The position numbers and the translations under genes are program-made. Under the pieces are notes generated by a model. The model worked only from the letters and a program-made list of their open reading frames with translations, was not told the DNA's origin and ran no database searches. Of a stretch of DNA of 10,942 nucleotides, positions 1,967 to 10,942 are shown piece after piece. The stretch comes from Aquificota bacterium. GTDB taxonomy: Bacteria > Aquificota > Aquificia > Aquificales > Aquificaceae. Location: the NCBI GenBank assembly GCA_013153455.1, contig JAADEK010000021.1:1-10942 (forward strand), given 5' to 3'. Positions within the stretch are counted from its first letter, which is position 1. Each line of letters starts with the position of its first letter.

Positions 1967-2524
1967 ATGGAGAAGCGTATAACAACACCGCTCACCGACG
2001 AGGTGATAGAGAGCCTAAGGGCGGGGGACAAGGTCTTAATAACGGGCTACATATACACAGCCAGGGACGCAGCTCACAAGAGGATGGTTGAGGCAATCCG
2101 GAGGGGGGAAAAGCCTCCCGTAGAGCTTGAGGGTCAGGTTATATACTACGTGGGACCCACACCCCCGAAGCCGGGGCAAGTGATTGGTTCCGCGGGACCC
2201 ACGACCGCCATAAGGATGGATAAATACGTTGAGCCACTCCTGAAGCTCGGGCTAAAGGGTATGATAGGGAAGGGATACCGCTCACCCCAAGTGAGGGAAC
2301 TCCTCAAAAGATACAAGGCGGTATACTTCGCAGCTGTGGGCGGGGTCGCCACGCTCCTCCAAAAGCACATAAAAAGCTCGGAGCTCGTCGCATACGAAGA
2401 CCTCGGAACGGAAGCGATAAGGAGACTCTACGTTGAGGACTTTCCCGTCATCGTCGCAAACGATATATACGGCGGGGACGTATTTGAGGAAGGAAGGAAA
2501 CGCTACGCGAAGATAGATGTATGA
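1967..2524 (+). CDS. fumB: Class I fumarate hydratase, beta (C-terminal-type) subunit
   Basis: One half of an oxygen-sensitive, 4Fe-4S class I fumarase that interconverts fumarate and malate. The 185 residues match the C-terminal domain found fused in E. coli FumA/FumB but separate in two-subunit enzymes. Conserved blocks seen are TARDAAHKR (31-39), YYVGPTP (60-66), GPTTAIRMD (77-85), MIGKG (99-103) and AAVGGVATLL (122-131). The alpha subunit, which carries the cluster cysteines, is not in this window. In Aquificales this enzyme serves the reductive TCA cycle. The gene starts four bases after aspS stops, with AAGGTGG at 1948-1954 as a somewhat distant ribosome binding site, and its end overlaps the next gene by eight bases, so all three are probably cotranscribed. 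L-tartrate dehydratase beta is a close relative and the main alternative. The symbol denotes the beta subunit and is not orthologous to full-length E. coli fumB. Confidence 0.9.
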   Translation: MEKRITTPLTDEVIESLRAGDKVLITGYIYTARDAAHKRMVEAIRRGEKPPVELEGQVIYYVGPTPPKPGQVIGSAGPTTAIRMDKYVEPLLKLGLKGMIGKGYRSPQVRELLKRYKAVYFAAVGGVATLLQKHIKSSELVAYEDLGTEAIRRLYVEDFPVIVANDIYGGDVFEEGRKRYAKIDV

Positions 2525-3329
2525 GAAGATTGAGCGCTTCAAGCGCAAGGAAGAGGAAAAGCTAAAGAAGCACATAGAGAGGCTGAGGCTCACGCGCTTT
2601 TCCCTCAAACGAAAGGAAGAAGAGCTGAAAGAACTCTACGAAAGGACGAAAAAAAGGAGCGGTGAACTAAAGGATTTGTTCCGCCTGAGGTCTATAGCCA
2701 AAGAGCTTGAGAGAGTAAGGGCGGAGCTTTCGGAGCTTGAGGAAAAGGAGAGAAAGGCGCTTTCGCGCCTTCTTGACCTGAAAAAGGAGATAAAGGCGGT
2801 TGAGATACTGAAGGAAAAAGCGAGTCTGAAGCGCTTAAAGAAGCAGATAGCCCTCACACTTCAAGAGATGAGCTTCATAGGGCTTATAAAGAAGAAGCTT
2901 CTTATTTTGCTCATATGCGGGGTTGCGCTCGGGGACGCGGTGGGCGAAGCTATGAAGCGCGAGGTTGAGAGCAAAAAGGGGGAGAACTACGAGCTGATAC
3001 TCAAAACGATAGAAAAGAAGCTAAAGGAGCTGAAGGAGGAGATAAAGAGGCTTGAGGAGCTAAAGGCGAAGAAGCTACCCGAGGAGCAAAGGAAGAGGAT
3101 AGAGAAGCTCGCGAAGGCTCTTGAGCGCGCGCCCGCGGACGAGATAGCTCCCGCTATTCAAAACCTCCCGCCGGAGCTCGGCGCGGAGCTCCTCCTTCGC
3201 GTAAAGCCGAGGAAAGCGGGCGAGATTCTCTCAAACATGAGCCCGGATAAGGCTTCAAAGATACTCTCTTACATACTCGCGAAAGACCCGAATCTCGCCC
3301 GGAAGCTCACCTCCTCTCTCTCAGATTGA
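2517..3329 (+). CDS. FliJ-like/MotE-like fusion: coiled coil, one membrane helix, MgtE_N-like tail
   Basis: A 270-residue protein in three parts. Residues 1-117 are a charged coiled coil with a FliJ-like pattern (FKRKEEEKL at the start, KAVEILKEKA near 94-102); FliJ is the export ATPase stalk and chaperone escort of the flagellum. Residues 121-145 are a basic-then-hydrophobic membrane helix or signal anchor (KKKLLILLICGVALGDA). Residues 150-205 are a second coiled coil. Residues 206-255 resemble the MgtE N-terminal repeat of MotE/YlxF proteins (LLLRVKPRKAGEILSNMSPDKASKIL region), which chaperone flagellar stators. In Bacillus, ylxF follows fliJ, so fusion of these neighbours is plausible. Predicted topology is N-terminus cytoplasmic, C-terminus periplasmic. 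An internal ATG at 2868 (Met118) could start a separate MotE, but it lacks a spaced ribosome binding site. The start overlaps the fumarase gene by eight bases. Domain boundaries are firm; the FliJ identity is inferred from pattern, since coiled coils can mislead. Confidence 0.65.
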   Translation: MYEKIERFKRKEEEKLKKHIERLRLTRFSLKRKEEELKELYERTKKRSGELKDLFRLRSIAKELERVRAELSELEEKERKALSRLLDLKKEIKAVEILKEKASLKRLKKQIALTLQEMSFIGLIKKKLLILLICGVALGDAVGEAMKREVESKKGENYELILKTIEKKLKELKEEIKRLEELKAKKLPEEQRKRIEKLAKALERAPADEIAPAIQNLPPELGAELLLRVKPRKAGEILSNMSPDKASKILSYILAKDPNLARKLTSSLSD

Positions 3330-4389
3330 AGTATCTGAGTATAGCCTTGTATATGCTGTAGGCGAGCTTTTTCTGGAATCTTGGGTCTCTGAGCCTTCTC
3401 GCCTCTCTCGGGTTTGTTATGAAGCCCGCCTCTATGAGAACCGAGGGTGTTCCGGGTGTTTTGAGAACGACGAATCCCGCCCTCCTTATGCCCTTGAAGT
3501 GAACCTCACGTCTCAGATTTCTCTTTAGCTCCCTCGCGAGTATGCGGGCGAAGCGCTCGCTCTCCTCAAGCGTTACGCGAAACGCGAGGTCGGAGATTAT
3601 CAACCGTGTGTCCTTGTAATGCGCTCCTCCGTCGTTCAAAAGTAGCTGTGCGTAATACCGATTCCTCGCAAACTCCCTTTTCTTCTTCAAGGCGCTCCTG
3701 TGGGATAGGGCGAATATCTGAGTCCCGCGTGCTCTCGGGTTTTTACGGGGTGCTGCGTCCGCGTGTATGCTTATAAAGAGGTGGGCTTTGTTCTTTATCG
3801 CTATGTGTGCCCTTTTTTCAAGCGGGACGTAGTAATCACCCCACCGGGTCATTATCACTTTAAACCTTCCGTCCCTCCTCAGGTATTGAGCGAGATACCT
3901 CGCTATCCTCAGGTTTACCCACTTTTCCTTAAGACCTCTGTAGCCTATGGCTCCGGGGTCCCTTCCCCCGTGACCGGGGTCTATGACGATTACCTTCTTT
4001 TTGGTCCTTTTTACGAAGTAGCTCCTCTTTGAGCGAAGGAGGTCAACCACGAGCCTCGGGGGGTTGTTCAGCTTGAAGCTCCTTACTTCATACCTCCTCG
4101 GGGGGTTTATTACTATCCTCCTTCCCCACGGGTGGCGCCCTACGCGGTATTTAAAACCCTTCGGCAGTCTTACCTTAAGGACTCTCACGTCCTTTCCGAG
4201 GACGTCTATAACAACCCTGTAGGGGTTCTTAAGGTAAAAGACCCTGTATTTTGCGTGCTTGTTCAGGTCAAGAACCACGCGAACCTTGTCGGGGTGAACG
4301 CCGTATCGGACCTTCACAAACGTCTTCCCGAGCGCGAAAGAGAGGAGTAAAAATACGCTAAGAAAAATGACGGAAAGCTTCCGGAACAC
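3307..4389 (-). CDS. amiC: N-acetylmuramoyl-L-alanine amidase, AmiC type (AMIN + Amidase_3)
   Basis: A periplasmic zinc enzyme that cuts the bond between N-acetylmuramic acid and L-alanine in peptidoglycan, usually during cell separation. The 360 residues comprise a signal peptide (1-21, MFRKL... ending FALG), an AMIN domain (about 24-120) and an Amidase_3 domain (about 131-355). Expected zinc and catalytic residues are present: His140 in DPGHGG, Glu155 in GLKEK, His209 in SIHADA and Glu320 in VLIEAGF. The stretch 228-280 (ALSHRSA to LEESERFA) aligns with the inserted helix that self-inhibits E. coli AmiB/AmiC, so activation by an EnvC- or NlpD-like LytM factor is likely. There is no LysM or SPOR domain. 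The start is GTG at 4389-4387, chosen because GGAGGAGGTG lies just upstream. It overlaps the preceding HerA-like gene by 32 bases, and its 3' end overlaps the fusion gene's by 23. Confidence 0.93.
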   Translation of the reverse strand: MFRKLSVIFLSVFLLLSFALGKTFVKVRYGVHPDKVRVVLDLNKHAKYRVFYLKNPYRVVIDVLGKDVRVLKVRLPKGFKYRVGRHPWGRRIVINPPRRYEVRSFKLNNPPRLVVDLLRSKRSYFVKRTKKKVIVIDPGHGGRDPGAIGYRGLKEKWVNLRIARYLAQYLRRDGRFKVIMTRWGDYYVPLEKRAHIAIKNKAHLFISIHADAAPRKNPRARGTQIFALSHRSALKKKREFARNRYYAQLLLNDGGAHYKDTRLIISDLAFRVTLEESERFARILARELKRNLRREVHFKGIRRAGFVVLKTPGTPSVLIEAGFITNPREARRLRDPRFQKKLAYSIYKAILRYFNLRERR

Positions 4390-6019
4390 CCACCTCCTCC
4401 TTTGCTTCTTCCTTCTTCGTAGCCCACGGGGAGAGGGGGAACCTTATCATTATGGGGTTCGGTATGTCGGGCTGATAGAGTATCATCGTTCCTTTCTTGA
4501 GCATTATAGCCCTCTGTCGGAAGTTCCCCGTAAGGAATTCATACTCCTTGCTGAGCACCTCACTGCTGTCAAGCCTTCCTGTGACCTTTACCGCTGCGTT
4601 TGCTATGATTCTCTTCTCTATCTCGCTCGCGGTCTGCTGTGCTCCTATGAGTATAACCCCTAAGCTCCTTCCCCTCTCCGCTATGTCAAGGAGTATGTCT
4701 TTTATGGGACTCCAGCGGTCTTTAGGAGCGTATTTGTTCAGCTCGTCAAGGACTATGAATATCTTCGGGTAGGGGTTACCGCTTTCCTCCTTTTCCTTGA
4801 AAATCTTTTTCAGGATTGAGCCAACGACGAACATCTTGGCTATGCCGTGCAGGTCGGAGATGTCAACGACGCTGAGTTGTTTGTTCCTCCAGTCTATAGC
4901 CCTCGTTTCGCTCCCGTAAACGAGGTGTTTTACGTGTGAGACCGCGTGGTGAAACCGCCTCAAGAACGCGTAAACCGTCGCGGGCATTGCGGTCCCGAAC
5001 CACTCCCTGTAGCGCTCCGTGTCCCTCTTGCTCTCCTTGTCCTCAACTATCTCGTGAAGGAGGGAAAGGAGGTCGCTCAGGCTGTTTATGGGTTTTCCGT
5101 TCTCGTCAAGGAGCTCATCCCCGGGGCTTTCCTTGGCGAGTCCCATCAGTTTCTCGCTCACTCGGTCTATGACGTAGTGCAGGGACGTCGTTCCCTCGTC
5201 CCCTTCCGCAAAGAGGAATCTGAGGAGTCCCTCTTGTGCGAAGTCCTTCATAGACCAGCTGTAGGGCTTTACGCCTTCCTTCCTCTCACCCGACGCTGGG
5301 ATTGGGCTACCGGGCTCCTCGGGCGGTGCGAAGAAGCCCACGTTCCTGAAGGGTCTGGGTTCAAGACCGAGCTTCTCAAAGTCCCTCCTGTGCTCCTCGG
5401 AAAATCGTTTGTTCTCTTTGTCTATCCAAAGGAGGTCTTTGCCTTTGACGTTGAATATGATGCCGTGTATCTTGTCCCTGTCGTCCGCCTTTTGGAATAT
5501 TGAGTAAAGTAAAAAGAGGGCGTAAGAGGTTTTCGTAGCTATACCGGACATCCCGGAGATTGATATGTGAGCCCCTTCCCTTCCGTTTATAAAGTCGTAG
5601 TTCAGGAATACGACGTTTCCGCTCCTCGTGAGTCCCGCGGGTATCCTCCTTTTCATGTTGTCGTAATAGAGAGCCTTCTCAAAGTCCTCACCCTGCGCCT
5701 TGTAGGCTGTGTCCCCGGGGTTGGGGGGTATGAAGACCTCGGGCTCTATGCGCGTAACGGAGACCTTAGCCATATACGCGAGGTTAGCGGGGACAACACC
5801 CGAGTTTACGAGCTTCGCGTCGTATACGAGCTCAACACCCTCAAGATACTTTATGACCTCGTCAACGACACCGTAAAACTTTATCTCCTGATTCGTCCCG
5901 TCAACCCTTGAACGAACTACGATGATATCGTCAAGCTGAACAAAGGTTCCCTTCTCAACCCCTATCCAGAACTCAAGCGGGTTTGAGGGTTTCGTTCCGA
6001 GAACTATGCCTACTTTCAT
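4358..6019 (-). CDS. HerA-like (FtsK/HerA superfamily, DUF87) ATPase
   Basis: A 553-residue protein related to the hexameric DNA translocase HerA. The N-terminal 100 residues fit a HAS-barrel. The nucleotide site follows: a P-loop-like GMSGIATKTS (156-165), a Walker B strand with acidic pair (IFIVLDEL, Asp425-Glu426), and ERGRSLG (448-454), which holds likely arginine-finger residues, followed by GAQQTASEI (459-467). The tail ILYQPDIPNPIMIRFP is typical of the superfamily. The P-loop is unusual: the glycine before the lysine is Thr162 and the loop spacing is not GxxGxGKS, although Lys163-Thr164 remain. Residues 230-345 form a charged insert. Archaeal HerA works with the nuclease NurA in end resection; no NurA is adjacent here, so the DNA role is unproven. 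Start ATG at 6019-6017 has GAGGGG upstream. It is transcribed away from the pel operon and into the amidase gene. Confidence 0.8.
   Translation of the reverse strand: MKVGIVLGTKPSNPLEFWIGVEKGTFVQLDDIIVVRSRVDGTNQEIKFYGVVDEVIKYLEGVELVYDAKLVNSGVVPANLAYMAKVSVTRIEPEVFIPPNPGDTAYKAQGEDFEKALYYDNMKRRIPAGLTRSGNVVFLNYDFINGREGAHISISGMSGIATKTSYALFLLYSIFQKADDRDKIHGIIFNVKGKDLLWIDKENKRFSEEHRRDFEKLGLEPRPFRNVGFFAPPEEPGSPIPASGERKEGVKPYSWSMKDFAQEGLLRFLFAEGDEGTTSLHYVIDRVSEKLMGLAKESPGDELLDENGKPINSLSDLLSLLHEIVEDKESKRDTERYREWFGTAMPATVYAFLRRFHHAVSHVKHLVYGSETRAIDWRNKQLSVVDISDLHGIAKMFVVGSILKKIFKEKEESGNPYPKIFIVLDELNKYAPKDRWSPIKDILLDIAERGRSLGVILIGAQQTASEIEKRIIANAAVKVTGRLDSSEVLSKEYEFLTGNFRQRAIMLKKGTMILYQPDIPNPIMIRFPLSPWATKKEEAKEEVGVPEAFRHFS
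4391..4400 (-). promoter_or_regulatory. Strong ribosome binding site deciding the GTG start of the amidase
   Basis: Minus-strand GGAGGAGGTG is followed by one base and then GTG at 4389-4387; counted from the first GGAGG the spacing is six bases. It lies inside the HerA-like coding region, so amidase translation is likely coupled to that gene. Confidence 0.7.
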
Positions 6020-6094
6020 ATCTTTATGCCCCTCTCTTCGGATAATATAGTGTTAATTCTACAATAGATAAGTAGATATAAAGGGGTGGAAAGA
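6020..6094. promoter_or_regulatory. Divergent promoter region between the HerA-like gene and pelC
   Basis: This 75-base AT-rich gap is the only place where both the leftward HerA-amidase unit and the rightward pel operon can start. On the plus strand TACAAT (6060-6065) is a one-mismatch -10 box, but the matching -35 (TTCGGA, 6037-6042) is weak, as expected for an activated promoter. On the minus strand TATTAT (6047-6042) is a possible -10 without a good -35. No clear operator palindrome is visible. AAGGGGTGG at 6081-6089 is the pelC ribosome binding site. The presence of promoters is inferred from gene layout; the exact boxes are uncertain. Confidence 0.4.
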
Positions 6095-6580
6095 ATGAAA
6101 AAAGCGCTGTCAATACTCGTGTTTTTTTTCCTGATTTCGGGCTGTGCGAGGGTGGTGGACAAAAAGAGCTTCAAGCTTCCCAAAGACAAGGTATACGCGG
6201 TCGTTCCCTTTGAGAATTACACGGACACGCCCCTCGCGGGTTTTCGCGTCGCGAGCATACTTGAGGGGGTTATGAGGGCGAGGGGATACAAGCTCGCGCC
6301 CCGCGTCTGGGAGTATACGGAAGATGAGCCTACAAAAGAGGAGCTGAAGCGTTGGGTTGAGGAGGCAAAGAAGCGCTCCGATTACGTGATTACGGGCTCC
6401 GTGAGCGAGTTTCGCTACAAGACGGGTATAGACGGGGAGCCCGCGGTGAGCATAACCCTCCTGCTTATAAACTCAAAAACGGGAGAGGCGGAGGGGGGTT
6501 CCGCACTTTCCGCGAGCGGGTGGGCGCACGAATCTGTGGGAACGCTCACCCAGAAGCTCCTCCGGGGCTTAATTAAATGA
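6095..6580 (+). CDS. pelC: PelC, outer-membrane lipoprotein of Pel polysaccharide export
   Basis: PelC forms a lipid-anchored ring at the periplasmic face of the outer membrane that guides the cationic Pel polymer to the PelB pore. This protein has 161 residues, close to the 172 of P. aeruginosa PelC. It begins with a lipoprotein signal whose lipobox is ISGC (14-17), so Cys17 becomes the lipidated N-terminus, followed by Ala-Arg. The block VPFENYTDTPLAGFRVASIL is the conserved PelC core near the mature N-terminus. An upstream GTG at 6086 would add three residues, but the ATG at 6095 is preferred: it gives a normal MKK signal peptide and lies five bases after GGTGG. Its stop overlaps pelD in an ATGA. 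It is the first gene of the operon; no pelA or pelB precedes it. Alone it could be mistaken for a generic lipoprotein, but the following pelDEFG genes settle it. Confidence 0.88.
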   Translation: MKKALSILVFFFLISGCARVVDKKSFKLPKDKVYAVVPFENYTDTPLAGFRVASILEGVMRARGYKLAPRVWEYTEDEPTKEELKRWVEEAKKRSDYVITGSVSEFRYKTGIDGEPAVSITLLLINSKTGEAEGGSALSASGWAHESVGTLTQKLLRGLIK

Positions 6581-7815
6581 AGAGGTTCCTCAGGAACCTC
6601 CTGCCAAACGTAGTCTTTGCGGAGGTCTTCTTCCTCTCACTCGTCTTTTTGGTCGCGGGTTTCTTCCTGAGAAAGGAAGACCCACTCTTCCTAAAGACCC
6701 CATACTCCCCTTCCCTTCTTCTGTCCCTCATATTCTCGCTCTACTACGGTTTTTCGGGGGGTCTTTCCTTTCTCGCTTTCTTGGCTCTCTCCTCACTTCT
6801 CCTTTACGAGGAGTTCCCCACTCACGCCCTCCTTTGGAACCTCCTTATAGTCCTCATAGCGTCCGAGTTCAGGTACTACTGGTTCAGGCGGATAAAGGGA
6901 GCGGAGATGGAGCGCGATTACGCAAAGGAGCAACTCTCAAGGCTCAGGAAGGAGCTTTTCCTTTTGAAGCTCTCGCACGACCAGCTTGAGTTTAACTACA
7001 TAGTAAAACCCTACAGCATAAGGGGTATACTTCAGGAGCTGAGGAAAAAACTCCTTGAGAGGGGGGACGAGCGGGCGCTTGCGCGCTTTTTTCTGAACCT
7101 TCTTTCACAAAACTTTCAGGTCTACAGCGCTTCCATATACAGACACGAGGGGGGAAAGCTTAAACTCCTTGAGAGCTTCGGGGAGGACGTTCGGGAAGCA
7201 AGCCCTGAGGACGAGCTTGTCCGGCTCGCCCTTGAGTCCGAAGAGACCTATTTCCTGCCCCCAAAAGCGCTGAGGCGCTTCCTCGCGGGGGGAGGGGAGC
7301 TTAAGCACCTCGCGGTCGTATACGCGAAGGCGGAACAAGAGACCTTCCTCCTTACGATAGAGGATATGATGTTTGTCAACCTCAACGAGGAGATTCTCTC
7401 ATACATTCAAATACTCCTTTTATACATGGCGGAAGACCTCGCGATATCCCGTAAGCTGTCTAAGCTCGCGAGAAAGTTCCCGCTCCCCTGTCCGTTTGAG
7501 TTTATAAGGGAGTATTACAAGATGTATGAGCTCTACAGGAAGCTTACCATACACAGCAGTGTTGTTATCTTTCGGTTTCCGAGCATAACGCCCGAGCTTG
7601 AGCAGGAAATCCAGCACTTTATAAGGAGTCTTGACGTTGTTTGTTTCGTAAAAGATAAAAACGTAGCCCTCTTTCTCCTCCCCTTTACAGCTCACGTGAA
7701 CGCCCAGAGCTTTGCTAACCGCCTTCGCTCCCGCTACCCGAACGCTGAACTCCTTCTCATACGCGAGGTAAGAACCCCCGATATCTCAGAGATATTAAGG
7801 GAGGCGGGAATATGA
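6577..7815 (+). CDS. pelD: PelD, inner-membrane c-di-GMP receptor of the Pel complex
   Basis: PelD binds cyclic di-GMP in the cytoplasm and switches on Pel synthesis. The 412 residues (455 in P. aeruginosa) show four membrane segments (about 12-31, 44-58, 61-77, 84-100), a linking helix (105-132), a GAF domain (about 145-290) including the family stretch SHDQLEFNYIVKPYSIRG (133-150), and a degenerate GGDEF domain (about 300-410). In the last, RSLD (350-353) is an intact I-site RxxD, followed by five residues and KDKNV where active cyclases have GGDEF, then ALFLLP. The spacing is exactly that of diguanylate cyclases, so the fold can bind but not make c-di-GMP. A second ligand arginine is expected about 35 residues after the first; Arg382, Arg384 and Arg386 are candidates. 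It starts with an ATGA overlap on pelC and ends with one on pelE. Confidence 0.93.
   Translation: MKRFLRNLLPNVVFAEVFFLSLVFLVAGFFLRKEDPLFLKTPYSPSLLLSLIFSLYYGFSGGLSFLAFLALSSLLLYEEFPTHALLWNLLIVLIASEFRYYWFRRIKGAEMERDYAKEQLSRLRKELFLLKLSHDQLEFNYIVKPYSIRGILQELRKKLLERGDERALARFFLNLLSQNFQVYSASIYRHEGGKLKLLESFGEDVREASPEDELVRLALESEETYFLPPKALRRFLAGGGELKHLAVVYAKAEQETFLLTIEDMMFVNLNEEILSYIQILLLYMAEDLAISRKLSKLARKFPLPCPFEFIREYYKMYELYRKLTIHSSVVIFRFPSITPELEQEIQHFIRSLDVVCFVKDKNVALFLLPFTAHVNAQSFANRLRSRYPNAELLLIREVRTPDISEILREAGI
7624..7665 (+). other. I-site RxxD and degenerate GGDEF of PelD
   Basis: These codons give residues 350-363 of PelD: RSLD, then VVCFV, then KDKNV. In active diguanylate cyclases the order is RxxD, five residues, GGDEF. 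The binding motif is intact while all catalytic positions of the signature are lost. Confidence 0.85.
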
Positions 7816-8750
7816 ACGCAAAGACCTTGGGTCTTTCGTCCGCGCTTGAAGCCTCCGCTCTCGGCGCCCTTTTTGCCCTCAGCTCCCCGCTCGGTGCGCT
7901 CCTTTATCTGGGACTTCACGCGGGCTCTTCCTTCCTCCTTTCACAGCTCTTTGGGACGCTCGCCAAAAGAGCGGTAAGGCGAAAGACAAAACTCCCCTTT
8001 TTCCTCCTCGTATACTTCTTCGGACCCCTCGGTTTTTTGGGCGGTGTGTTTGTTCTTCTCGCCCTTTACTTAAAGAGGAGGGACGTGACGTTTCTTTACG
8101 AGAGCCTGAGCTCGGAGATATCTCCGGAGATAGAGTTCAAGGGTAGGAAGGCGGGAGAGTCCTTCGGGAGGATAAAAAGTCCGAAGATGGTGATGTATAT
8201 GAGTAAGGTTCTTCACCCGCTCGCGATACGTTATCTGAAGGAGGCTGTTTCATCGCCCGACGACGAGGTTCGCCTCATCGCCTTTTCCCGTATATCAACA
8301 CTTGAGAAGGATATCATGAACCGAATAGGTGAGATGACCCAGATGCTTGAGAAGGCTCAATCAAAGACGGAGCGATTTTCCCTCCTCCTTTCAATAGCGG
8401 AGTTATACTGGGAGCTTGTTTACCTCGGTATAAGCGACGAGGAGCTTGAGCACTTTTACGCAAATAGCGCAAAGCAATACGCCAAGAAGGCTCTTGAGCT
8501 GAGAAAGAGCGGGAGGGCTTCGTTTCTTCTCGGGAGGATAAGCCTGAGGGAGGGTGAGCTTGATGAGGCGGAAAGGTTTCTCCTCTTTGCCCTTCGCTCC
8601 GGTTTCCCCAAAGAGAGGGTGGCTCCGTATCTTCTTGAGGTCTACTTCAGGAAGAAAGACTTTAACACACTCTTTGAGAGGGCGAAAGAGTTCAAAGGGC
8701 TCATACCCCCCGAACACAGGAGCGCGACCATACTGAGGGTTTGGGTATGA
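7812..8750 (+). CDS. pelE: PelE, membrane/TPR scaffold of the Pel synthase complex
   Basis: PelE is an inner-membrane protein with a cytoplasmic TPR domain that links PelF to PelD and PelG. This 312-residue protein (about 329 in P. aeruginosa) has two hydrophobic segments (about 12-36 and 61-87) with a basic loop between them (KRAVRRKTK), then a cytoplasmic region. The stretch SPDDEVRLIAFSRISTLEKD (148-167) matches the conserved PelE block (DDVRLLAYxxLxxxEK). Helical repeats from about 185 to 290 look like TPRs, including SGRASFLLGRISLREGELDE (233-252). Start ATG at 7812 overlaps the pelD stop as ATGA, and the pelE stop overlaps pelF as ATGA. Such PelE proteins diverge quickly, so position and domain layout carry much of the call. 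Confidence 0.88.
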   Translation: MNAKTLGLSSALEASALGALFALSSPLGALLYLGLHAGSSFLLSQLFGTLAKRAVRRKTKLPFFLLVYFFGPLGFLGGVFVLLALYLKRRDVTFLYESLSSEISPEIEFKGRKAGESFGRIKSPKMVMYMSKVLHPLAIRYLKEAVSSPDDEVRLIAFSRISTLEKDIMNRIGEMTQMLEKAQSKTERFSLLLSIAELYWELVYLGISDEELEHFYANSAKQYAKKALELRKSGRASFLLGRISLREGELDEAERFLLFALRSGFPKERVAPYLLEVYFRKKDFNTLFERAKEFKGLIPPEHRSATILRVWV

Positions 8751-10267
8751 GGGTTCTTGACAAGGGAAAGCCCGTTGACGTTCTGTTTATAGCGGAAGGG
8801 ACATACCCTTACGTAAGGGGAGGTGTCTCTACGTGGATACACCAACTCATAACGGGTATGCCGGACCTGTCTTTCGGTGTTTTGTTCCTCGGCTCAAGGG
8901 AAGAAGACTACTCCGCTATAAGATACCAACTCCCGGAGAACCTCGTCCTCCTTGAGACGTTCTTTATGTTCTCAAGGCTTGAGTTCCCAAGACCGAGACC
9001 CTCAGACGGCTCACCCGAGGTTAAGAAGCTGAAAGCTTTCTTCCGGGAGGGGGGTGAGGTTCCTGAGGAACTCGTGGACGAGAGCTTCTACACCCGAAAG
9101 CTCACCTTCTCGGACGTCCTCTACGGGAGAAGGACGTGGGAGATGTTTGAGGAGCTGTATGAGGAGAGACGCATAACCGTCCCGTTTGTTGACTTTTTCT
9201 GGACGCTCAGGAATATACTCACACCCCTGTGGGTTCTCGTGAGGGCGCTTTCTTCTGTAAAGGGAAGGACGATTCGGCTCGTTCACAGTCCCTCAACGGG
9301 CTACGCGGGGTTTCTGGGTTCAATGCTCAGGAAAAACCTGAGGATTCCCTTCATAATAACCGAGCACGGTCTATACACAAAAGAGAGAAAGATAGATATC
9401 CTTAACTCCCAATGGATAAAGTCCGTCTCCCCCTTCTCAACCGACAAATACGACATAGACGACCTCAGGAAGCTTTGGATTAACTTCTTCGTAAACGTCG
9501 GGAGGGTGTGCTACGCGTGGGCGGAGGAGGTGTTCTCACTCTACGAGGGGGCAAGGGAGGCGCAGATAAGCTTAGGATGCCCGCCCCACAAGGCTCGCGT
9601 GATACCGAACGGTGTTGAGATAGAGAAGTTCGCACCCCTTCGCGAAAGGAGACCCCCGCGCGTCCCGAAGGTAGTCGCCCTAATCGGGAGGGTGGCACCC
9701 ATAAAGGACGTAAAGACGTTCATAAAGGCTATGAAGATACTCACGACAAAAGACCCCTCCGTTGAGGGGTGGGTCGTCGGTCCCGAGGACGAAGACCCTA
9801 ACTACGCCCGTGAGTGCAGGATGCTCGTAAAGACGCTCGGTCTTGAGGGAAAGGTTAAGTTCCTCGGGTTTAGGCGCGTTGATGAGGTCTTTCCCCGCAT
9901 AGGTCTCACCACGCTTACCTCCATAAGCGAGGGGATGCCCATGGTCGTTTTGGAGTCCTTTGCGTCCGGCGTTCCTTGCGTCACGACCGACGTCGGCTCC
10001 TGTCGTCAACTTATCTACGGCGGTCTTAACGAGGAGGACAAAGCACTCGGTAAGGCGGGTGAGGTCGTCCCCGTAGCGAATCCCCGCGCCCTTGCGGAGG
10101 CTTACTGGAAGCTTTTGAACGACGAGAAGCTCTGGAGGGAGTGCCAAAGGGTGGGTATAGAGCGCGTTGAGCGCTTTTACTCCTTTGAGAAGTTCATAAA
10201 CAACTACAGGTCCGTTTACGAGAAATACAGGAGGCTCAGCGTTGGCGGGAATATCAATAGAGCTTAA
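8747..10267 (+). CDS. pelF: PelF, cytoplasmic GT4-family glycosyltransferase of Pel synthesis
   Basis: PelF polymerises the Pel chain, a galactosamine/N-acetylgalactosamine polymer, from UDP-linked sugars. The 506 residues (507 in P. aeruginosa) are a complete GT-B fold without membrane segments. The N-terminal domain carries the family's opening motif EGTYPYVRGGVSTWIHQL (17-34) and TEHGLYTKERKI (205-216). The C-terminal domain has VIPNGV (285-290), GRVAPIKDVKTFI (314-326) and the GT4 E-x7-E motif SEGMPMVVLESFASG (Glu395, Glu403), then TDVGSC (414-419). An alternative TTG start at 8741 adds two residues; the ATG at 8747 is preferred because it gives the same ATGA overlap as the other pel junctions. 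The 3' end overlaps pelG by 26 bases. The near-identical length and all motifs make this the most secure pel gene. Confidence 0.96.
   Translation: MRVLDKGKPVDVLFIAEGTYPYVRGGVSTWIHQLITGMPDLSFGVLFLGSREEDYSAIRYQLPENLVLLETFFMFSRLEFPRPRPSDGSPEVKKLKAFFREGGEVPEELVDESFYTRKLTFSDVLYGRRTWEMFEELYEERRITVPFVDFFWTLRNILTPLWVLVRALSSVKGRTIRLVHSPSTGYAGFLGSMLRKNLRIPFIITEHGLYTKERKIDILNSQWIKSVSPFSTDKYDIDDLRKLWINFFVNVGRVCYAWAEEVFSLYEGAREAQISLGCPPHKARVIPNGVEIEKFAPLRERRPPRVPKVVALIGRVAPIKDVKTFIKAMKILTTKDPSVEGWVVGPEDEDPNYARECRMLVKTLGLEGKVKFLGFRRVDEVFPRIGLTTLTSISEGMPMVVLESFASGVPCVTTDVGSCRQLIYGGLNEEDKALGKAGEVVPVANPRALAEAYWKLLNDEKLWRECQRVGIERVERFYSFEKFINNYRSVYEKYRRLSVGGNINRA
10229..10234 (+). promoter_or_regulatory. Perfect ribosome binding site deciding the TTG start of pelG
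   Basis: AGGAGG lies seven bases before TTG at 10242-10244, inside the end of pelF. It fixes the otherwise easily missed TTG start of pelG and suggests translation coupled to pelF. Confidence 0.8.
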
Positions 10268-10942
10268 GAAAGTCCTAAAGAAGGAGAGCCTTTTAAGTAT
10301 TCTTCTCGCTACGGGATACTCCGCGCTTCTCGGGACGGGAAACTGGGTCATAGCGGTATCAACGATATTTTTCTTCTCCGCGCTCGCGAGCGCCTTTTCG
10401 CGCTCCCCGGAAATCCCCGTCGTTTACCAAGTTTACATAACGTATACCGTAGCCCTGAGCCTCATCTTCTCCGGACCCCTTCAGCTCATGTTCACGAGAT
10501 ACGTCGCGGACAGGCTCTTTGAGAAGGAGCCCGAGCGCGTTCTTCCCAATTACATGGGCGCCCTCACGCTTAGCATGGGCTACTCTTTCGTCCTTTCCTT
10601 ACTCCTATCTCTTTACCTCTTTTCCGGGAAACCTTACTACTACCACCTGCTTTTTAGCTTTACGGTGAGCGTCCTTTCGGGTCTTTGGGTTACGAACGCC
10701 CTCCTTACGGGTCTGAAGAGCTACAAACACATACTCATCTCCTTCGGTATTTCTTACCTGCTCATCGGGGTTCTCCTCGTTTTTTCCTCGTCTTTCGGGC
10801 TCTTTTGGACGTTTGCCTCCTTCTACGCGGGTCAGTGTCTTCTGCTTTTGCTACTCCTTTTTAGGGTTGTGAGGGATTACCCGTCGGACAGACTATTTGA
10901 GACAGACTTCTTGAGACCTTCCCGCTCCTACTACTCACTCGC
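10242..10942 (+). CDS. pelG: PelG, polytopic Pel transporter (5' part; runs off the window)
   Basis: PelG is the inner-membrane protein, of the flippase-like MOP type, thought to move the growing Pel chain to the periplasm with PelD, PelE and PelF. The first 233 codons are visible, about half of the usual 455 or so. The start is TTG, supported by AGGAGG seven bases upstream and by the family N-terminus: MAGISIELKKVLKKESLLS matches the PelG opening MAGIGFELRKLLxxxS. The block TYTVALSLIFSGPLQLMFTR (68-87), followed by ADRLFEKE and VLPNYMG (100-106), is also diagnostic. Hydrophobic segments are visible at about 24-50, 67-85, 107-128, 134-157, 164-182 and 186-208. The frame is open to the right edge with no stop. 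It overlaps pelF by 26 bases, so it belongs to the same operon. Confidence 0.93.
   Translation, partial: MAGISIELKKVLKKESLLSILLATGYSALLGTGNWVIAVSTIFFFSALASAFSRSPEIPVVYQVYITYTVALSLIFSGPLQLMFTRYVADRLFEKEPERVLPNYMGALTLSMGYSFVLSLLLSLYLFSGKPYYYHLLFSFTVSVLSGLWVTNALLTGLKSYKHILISFGISYLLIGVLLVFSSSFGLFWTFASFYAGQCLLLLLLLFRVVRDYPSDRLFETDFLRPSRSYYSL

Follow-up and report, generated by a model that had tools for sequence, protein, structure and literature searches.

The sequence analyzed here (the window) is the whole 10,942-nucleotide contig JAADEK010000021.1 of Aquificota bacterium assembly GCA_013153455.1 (contig C113 in our numbering), from a draft genome of 1.15 Mb that is 83% complete and divided into 126 contigs. 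Its right-hand part carries five consecutive plus-strand genes, pelC to pelG, for the exopolysaccharide Pel. An earlier note on this DNA had recognized them there, and open reading frames (ORFs), profile matches, and matches to the sequences of solved structures all bore this out. We hold with high confidence that these genes belong to a complete, thermophile-type Pel operon of the Gram-negative kind, pelC-D-E-F-G-A-BN-B, whose host is a hyperthermophile of the Aquificaceae, and that they lie in a block of ~14.7 kb between herA and purQ that was probably transferred horizontally.

The products of pelC, pelD, pelF, and pelG were identified by profiles or by sequences of solved structures. PelF scored 590.9 bits against the NCBIfam PelF equivalog NF038011, almost six times the cut-off of 100, matched DUF3492 (E = 3.1e-76), and has an EX7E motif at residue 397 in the numbering of the TTG-started protein. 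For PelG, the piece in the window matched PF16933 with 183 bits (E = 1.2e-53) and a second piece, on contig C25, matched with 243.5 bits, the cut-off being 29. PelC possesses the lipobox cysteine and matched Pseudomonas aeruginosa PelC in the solved PelBC complex 9h80 (phmmer E = 1.6e-20), as well as the solved structures 5t11, 5t10, and 5t0z.

PelD scored 32.7 bits against PF16963 (PelD_GGDEF; cut-off, 27). In an alignment to solved PelD 4dmz, its residues R149, R350, D353, and R382 align with the cyclic di-GMP (c-di-GMP)-binding residues of P. aeruginosa PelD; the fourth of the P. aeruginosa residues we take to be R161, which has its counterpart in the alignment. An alignment of 18 homologs has two invariant columns, one of them D353, and twelve that are nearly invariant, which include R149, R350, and R382. 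The P. aeruginosa residues given in an excerpt of PMC7112168 include R367, D370, and R402. Both the I-site residues and a degenerate GGDEF domain are present, and PelD is predicted to bind c-di-GMP. The genome as a whole contains six GGDEF matches.

The identity of PelE is the least certain of the five and draws on gene order, length, a structural model, and homology to a single protein named PelE. A profile built from 20 neighboring PelE proteins found 83 proteins, of which one was named PelE by the Joint Genome Institute (E = 2.4e-52), and hhalign matched our PelE to that protein with a probability of 99.9% across 320 columns. In the AlphaFold model (mean pLDDT, 83.7), four helices at the N terminus are followed by a linker of low confidence (residues 89 to 119) and by a TPR-like domain made of helices. 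When PelE and PelB were each searched as single sequences against solved structures, no Pel protein was returned, and the matches were mostly designed or other TPR proteins. The earlier note would have been refuted by PelF and PelG falling outside the Pel clades, or by middle genes that match no PelD or PelE profile. Neither outcome was seen: PelF lies inside the PelF equivalog and PelD matches its family profile; PelE matched no curated PelE model.

The remainder of the operon was located by searching the same genome with proteins of relatives. Contig C25 carries pelG residues 205 to 457, pelA, and pelB in a row. The end of the window and the start of reverse-complemented C25 share 91 identical bases, and because of this overlap we consider it most likely that the two contigs are contiguous and that the assembler broke inside pelG. 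Following pelG on C25 are pelA (894 amino acids [aa]), pelBN (a TPR protein of 329 aa with a single membrane segment), pelB (975 aa), and a convergent galE whose product has an equivalog match of 485.6 bits. A minimal operon lacking pelA and pelB, which the window with its C-to-G genes might suggest, is thus ruled out by the C25 genes and the 91-base overlap, and the pelCDEFG operon of the earlier note stands in its gene content but extends further, to pelC-D-E-F-G-A-BN-B plus galE. PelA matched full-length solved PelA 9cgy over residues 20 to 887 (E = 1.4e-142), across both the GH166 hydrolase and the CE21 deacetylase. By hand count along this alignment, it keeps counterparts of all six of the P. 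aeruginosa (PaPelA) residues D160, E218, D528, D530, H600, and H604, whose catalytic and metal-binding roles are described in an excerpt of PMC12022489, and the count agrees with the published PtPelA-PaPelA numbering offset. ARAGORN placed a tRNA-Pro across the pelBN/pelB junction (L072:11245-11319). Rfam models gave no tRNA match there and the candidate was not found in three loci of relatives, L031, L038, and L089, and we take it as probably false.

Features of the pel locus in the window
Feature	Position	Strand	Assignment	Evidence
herA-like ATPase gene	4361..6019	-	Left flank of island	HAS-barrel match; found in 8/8 genomes searched; neighbor order
herA-pelC intergenic gap	6020..6094		Left edge of island	Pairwise alignments
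pelC	6095..6580	+	Outer-membrane lipoprotein of Pel export channel, LISGC lipobox	phmmer match to solved PelC
pelD	6577..7815	+	Predicted membrane c-di-GMP receptor, degenerate GGDEF	PF16963; solved PelD 4dmz
pelE	7812..8750	+	Hydrophobic helices at N terminus, linker of low confidence, TPR-like domain of helices	Order, length, homology, model
pelF	8747..10267	+	Predicted GT4 glycosyltransferase	NCBIfam NF038011 PelF equivalog; EX7E motif
pelG, first 233 codons	10242..10942 (contig end)	+	Predicted inner-membrane exporter	PF16933 positions 1-233 of 452

The pel junctions within the window overlap, three by ATGA and one, between pelF and pelG, by 26 bases, just as the earlier note had described. 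The pelC product is 161 aa long when read from the ATG at 6095, and its stop codon ends at 6580. The ORF lister offers an alternative GTG start at 6086, which falls within the ribosome-site-like stretch GGGGTGGA; the start at 6095, downstream of that stretch, is the most likely one. PelF may start at ATG 8747 or TTG 8741, and pelG starts at TTG 10242. A promoter and terminator scan of positions 5900 to 6400 found none. To the left of pel lie aspS, a gene for a fumarase beta-type hydro-lyase, a gene for a coiled-coil protein, and, both on the minus strand, genes for an AmiC-like amidase (3310-4389) and the HerA-like ATPase. The coiled-coil protein (2517-3326), which adjoins the aspS and hydro-lyase genes, matches MgtE_N and weakly resembles FliG_M.

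The most likely mechanism is as follows. PelF would polymerize UDP-N-acetylgalactosamine (UDP-GalNAc), a precursor plausibly supplied by the adjacent GalE, and c-di-GMP binding by PelD would allow PelD-E-F-G to carry the chain over the inner membrane. PelA would then trim and deacetylate the chain in the periplasm, and PelB together with the PelC lipoprotein ring would release the cationic polymer into the biofilm matrix. Gene content, gene order, conserved catalytic and ligand residues, and presence/absence polymorphism of the site are observed in these genomes; the enzyme activities, polymer chemistry, c-di-GMP control, and biofilm role are carried over from the P. aeruginosa and Bacillus cereus systems and may be expected to hold here. 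It could also be that the same machine handles a different sugar or modification and makes another polysaccharide. The evidence is one of homology only, diverged operons may make other polymers according to an excerpt of PMC7112194, and PelF proteins of the three pel-bearing congeners are only 57 to 70% identical. We judge a different polymer improbable, given the wide margin by which PelF exceeds its equivalog cut-off, the retention of the hydrolase and deacetylase residues of PelA, and the presence of galE, convergent beside pelB, in the window genome and in genomes G005, G031, G046, and G054.

The host, which is close to Aquifex, was described in the earlier note as a probable thermophile, and its thermophily is well supported as a prediction, because the genome encodes a reverse gyrase that scores above the curated cut-off, one that 4 of 14 control genomes also pass. 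The attached or streamer-like growth and the heat-stable Pel complex that the earlier note suggested are putative.

PelB, as described for P. aeruginosa, is a single protein bridging both membranes. Here, we found instead the 329-aa pelBN product with its one membrane segment and a 975-aa PelB with its own signal-like start. The barrel of the latter scored 81.1 bits against PelB_C PF24604 (cut-off, 31), and a profile of 16 large PelB homologs matched solved P. aeruginosa PelB (9h80) with an E value of 3.2e-47 and a best stretch at residues 285 to 743, far above other repeat proteins. The pelBN profile matched PelB residues 53 to 171 (E = 1.2e-16). We assign pelBN as the N-terminal part of PelB from its position and from published pelB fission; because a split pelB has been published for aquatic thermophiles (PMC7112194, in excerpt), we regard the one-piece form as a trait of P. 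aeruginosa and not as family defining.

Pfam detected a SPOR domain in 4 of the 16 PelBs, including that of the window genome, at the start of the barrel half. Our own SPOR profile adds G059, one G040 ORF, and an additional PelB-like gene in G052, but three matching rows had been used to build it, and the independent count is the Pfam one. A database search with PelB residues 1 to 330, in which scoring was limited to the 7,993 candidates with the most words in common, gave nine proteins; in six, among them the PelB of the window genome, SPOR and the PelB barrel occur together. No publication linking a SPOR domain with PelB was found in the literature searched. The second PelB-like gene of G052 (L047:4316-8197), whose 1294-aa product matches SPOR internally, is situated upstream of pelC, and the usual pelBN-pelB pair lies downstream. 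Also, contig C92 of the window genome carries a second synthase-type polysaccharide locus (L121:776-5512), in which a SPOR-BcsB fusion is followed by a small protein with no Pfam match and by an MshEN-GT2 protein; the SPOR domain of the fusion is related to that of PelB. A link between the AmiC-like amidase and the SPOR-bearing PelB was considered and is unsupported, as the amidase adjoins herA also at sites without pel.

The chromosomal setting of the operon differs among close relatives. In congeners G006, G002, and G003, herA and purQ are divergent direct neighbors with gaps of 69, 42, and 59 bp, and in the window genome they are 14,749 bp apart. Found between them are the eight pel genes, galE, and genes for a TaqI-type restriction enzyme and for a DNA methylase. 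The restriction enzyme and the N6/N4 methylase (L072:5737-7360) stand inside the island between galE and purQ. In the herA-pelC gap, pairwise alignments show that ~43 bp beside herA resemble the empty-site herA-purQ gap, after which the similarity ends. No PelF above the cut-off was found in G006 or G002. In G003, a partial pel locus lies away from this site, next to hemB, and in G005 pel adjoins an rlmN-like gene (named from its sequence); each of these three genomes of a single genus thus has pel at a different place in the chromosome. The contigs of G004 and G005 end at herA and carry no information on the site. In G001, the side of herA that holds the Pel island in the window genome is occupied by genes for GT2, PilZ-HlyD, and SPOR proteins (L136:7455-13088), of which the PilZ-HlyD protein presumably represents an Alg44-like arrangement. 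PurQ is not on the far side of that cluster, so that one flank alone is shared.

The phylogeny of PelF departs from that of its hosts. Constraining Aquificaceae PelF to one clade was rejected (P value of the approximately unbiased test [p_AU], 1.4e-4), as was one clade for the PelF of a second family (p_AU, 2.7e-4); a clade of genus g1 was rejected more weakly (p_AU, 0.0245). Two of the five clade tests, with G029 and/or G007 removed, gave p_AU values of 0.0128 and 1.8e-5. These removals were picked after the first tree, and the other groups were set by kinship codes, with one Persephonella metagenome-assembled genome (MAG) placed in the second family because of its name. G000 and G003 are 90.9% identical in RpoB and 60.1% in PelF, whereas G029 and G042, from different families, are 58.3% identical in RpoB and 68.1% in PelF. 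Across the 136 pairs of the 17 genomes with both proteins, the rank correlation of RpoB and PelF identity was 0.39 (30 of the 61 genomes were given to the RpoB search, and 28 had a match). The PelF of a MAG recorded under the label Thermodesulfovibrio pairs with that of G003 (support, 97/93) within an otherwise Aquificaceae clade (95/92). The tree was reduced from 38 rows to 29, omitting G024, G050, G059, SKYG16, the Chromatiales outgroup, Thermocrinis, an Aquifex MAG, and two Hydrogenivirga rows; G030, with a partial PelF, is in neither PelF tree. With 29 sequences and a long G007 branch, the tree does not settle the direction or number of transfers.

Because the PelF phylogeny rejects Aquificaceae monophyly, we think that horizontal transfer probably brought in the herA-purQ block. 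The alternative would be descent by vertical inheritance and repeated loss, and Pel is indeed common in the order, with PelF above the cut-off in 23 of 61 genomes and in 3 of the 7 in the genus of the window. Also, in G010 and G031 (genus g5) pel lies by the same miaB-like gene (named from its sequence), on opposite operon sides, and the g1 clade is rejected only weakly. We nevertheless regard purely vertical descent as unlikely in view of the firmer rejection for the family, the three sites within one genus, and the pairing of the Thermodesulfovibrio-labeled PelF with G003, unless that MAG is mislabeled or contaminated.

Among the 23 PelF-positive genomes, all of whose neighborhoods were read, the order C-D-E-F-G-A-BN-B was seen in 15 (in the window genome across two contigs), the labels coming from iterated profiles, of which the one for pelBN strayed into other TPR proteins. 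In G024, G030, and G059 the pel runs are cut by contig ends. Two Aquificaceae genomes, G021 (L056:7441-10221) and G033 (L057:7438-10296), have pelB ahead of pelC, the latter also being cut by a contig end, and the pelB part of G040 and of G050 is spread over two frames. Among the closest PelF proteins, the best 120 of 4,830, many are already named from thermophile sources. G003, with pel sequences at L060:119-3866 and on contig C77, retains only pelE-F-G, between hemB and a contig end; its PelA pieces lie at contig edges, two of the three with in-frame stops, no full PelD was found in the genome, and the locus is either decaying or badly assembled. This congener lends some color to the idea that pel in the window genome is likewise an inactive or decaying remnant. 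We give that idea very little credence, as all pel genes there are full-length open frames (pelG in two pieces that overlap), and the active-site and ligand residues are conserved.

Several observations weigh against the reading of a complete and transferred operon. Solved PelD 4dmz is matched weakly by our PelD (E = 3.3e-4), PelC and PelE have no match to any Pel model in Pfam or NCBIfam, and PelE shows only a weak TPR match. PelG is known from its two overlapping pieces alone, in a genome as fragmented as this one. For pelBN, a designed TPR protein outscores PelB (1e-18 versus 1.2e-16), and the iterated profile, with 66 hits, drifted to TPR proteins of other kinds. The UDP-N-acetylglucosamine (UDP-GlcNAc) specificity of GalE is putative, as are expression of the operon, its polymer, and a biofilm. 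With respect to transfer, no integrase or transposase was recognized among ORFs of at least 90 aa, and no edge repeats were found, the longest word common to the 500 bp around both edges being 9 bases, which is within the shuffle range; transferred DNA need not carry such mobility genes or repeats. The GC content of the island is the same as that of its surroundings, and the empty site by itself does not separate gain in the window lineage from loss in its congeners.

All seven functions of P. aeruginosa pelABCDEFG are present, PelC, PelD, PelB, and PelA match solved proteins, and c-di-GMP-binding and catalytic residues are conserved. Unlike the A-B-C-D-E-F-G order of P. aeruginosa, the order here is C-D-E-F-G-A-B, a cyclic permutation, and pelB is divided between two genes, of which the one for the barrel half starts with SPOR. 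Fission of pelB and rearrangement in pel operons of aquatic thermophiles are described in Fig 5(iii) of PMC7112194; the section concerned names no Aquificota species or SPOR domain, and our comparison with it is by description, not gene by gene. The Gram-positive B. cereus operon pelDEADAFG has in common with ours the RxxD c-di-GMP site of PelD as well as PelF, PelG, and PelE, but as named in an excerpt of PMC7112168 it is without pelB and pelC, both of which are present here, as expected with an outer membrane. Two Aquificota PelB homologs, Sulfurihydrogenibium azorense SULAZ_0918 and Persephonella marina PERMA_1356, are cited for a conserved tyrosine in the part of PMC12141448 concerned, where their operon is not described; like the PelB of the window genome, they are from Aquificota. 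Full-length PelA (PMC12022489, in excerpt) and PelD (a figure legend of PMC10333796) are likewise reported from Aquificota. The view that Pel has been studied mainly in mesophiles needs qualification, since Pel genes of Aquificota and other thermophiles, and pelB fission, are already published, and the novelty here is modest. New here are the polymorphism of the herA-purQ site, the signal of transfer in PelF, and a split PelB that bears SPOR.

Two linked readings of these elements are offered tentatively, as possible and no more than that. First, in some Aquificota the PelB bridge may be cut in two, with the SPOR domain of the outer-membrane half tying the exporter to peptidoglycan in place of one periplasm-spanning chain. 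SPOR domains behave in this way in other proteins, which is the basis for the proposed anchoring, and because the window genome also encodes the SPOR-BcsB fusion, such fixation might perhaps be general for polysaccharide exporters. Second, the chromosomal side of herA may hold differing c-di-GMP-linked polysaccharide machines across Aquifex lineages, with the Pel island in the window genome, the GT2, PilZ-HlyD, and SPOR cluster in G001, and none in three further genomes.

Because the complete Pel set belongs to an organism that bears reverse gyrase, the Pel proteins may serve as stable material for structural studies of the D-E-F-G and A-B-C complexes. The split, SPOR-bearing PelB bears on whether export needs a continuous trans-envelope bridge. 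The site polymorphism, together with the PelF tree, suggests that deep-branching thermophiles exchange the capacity to form biofilm.

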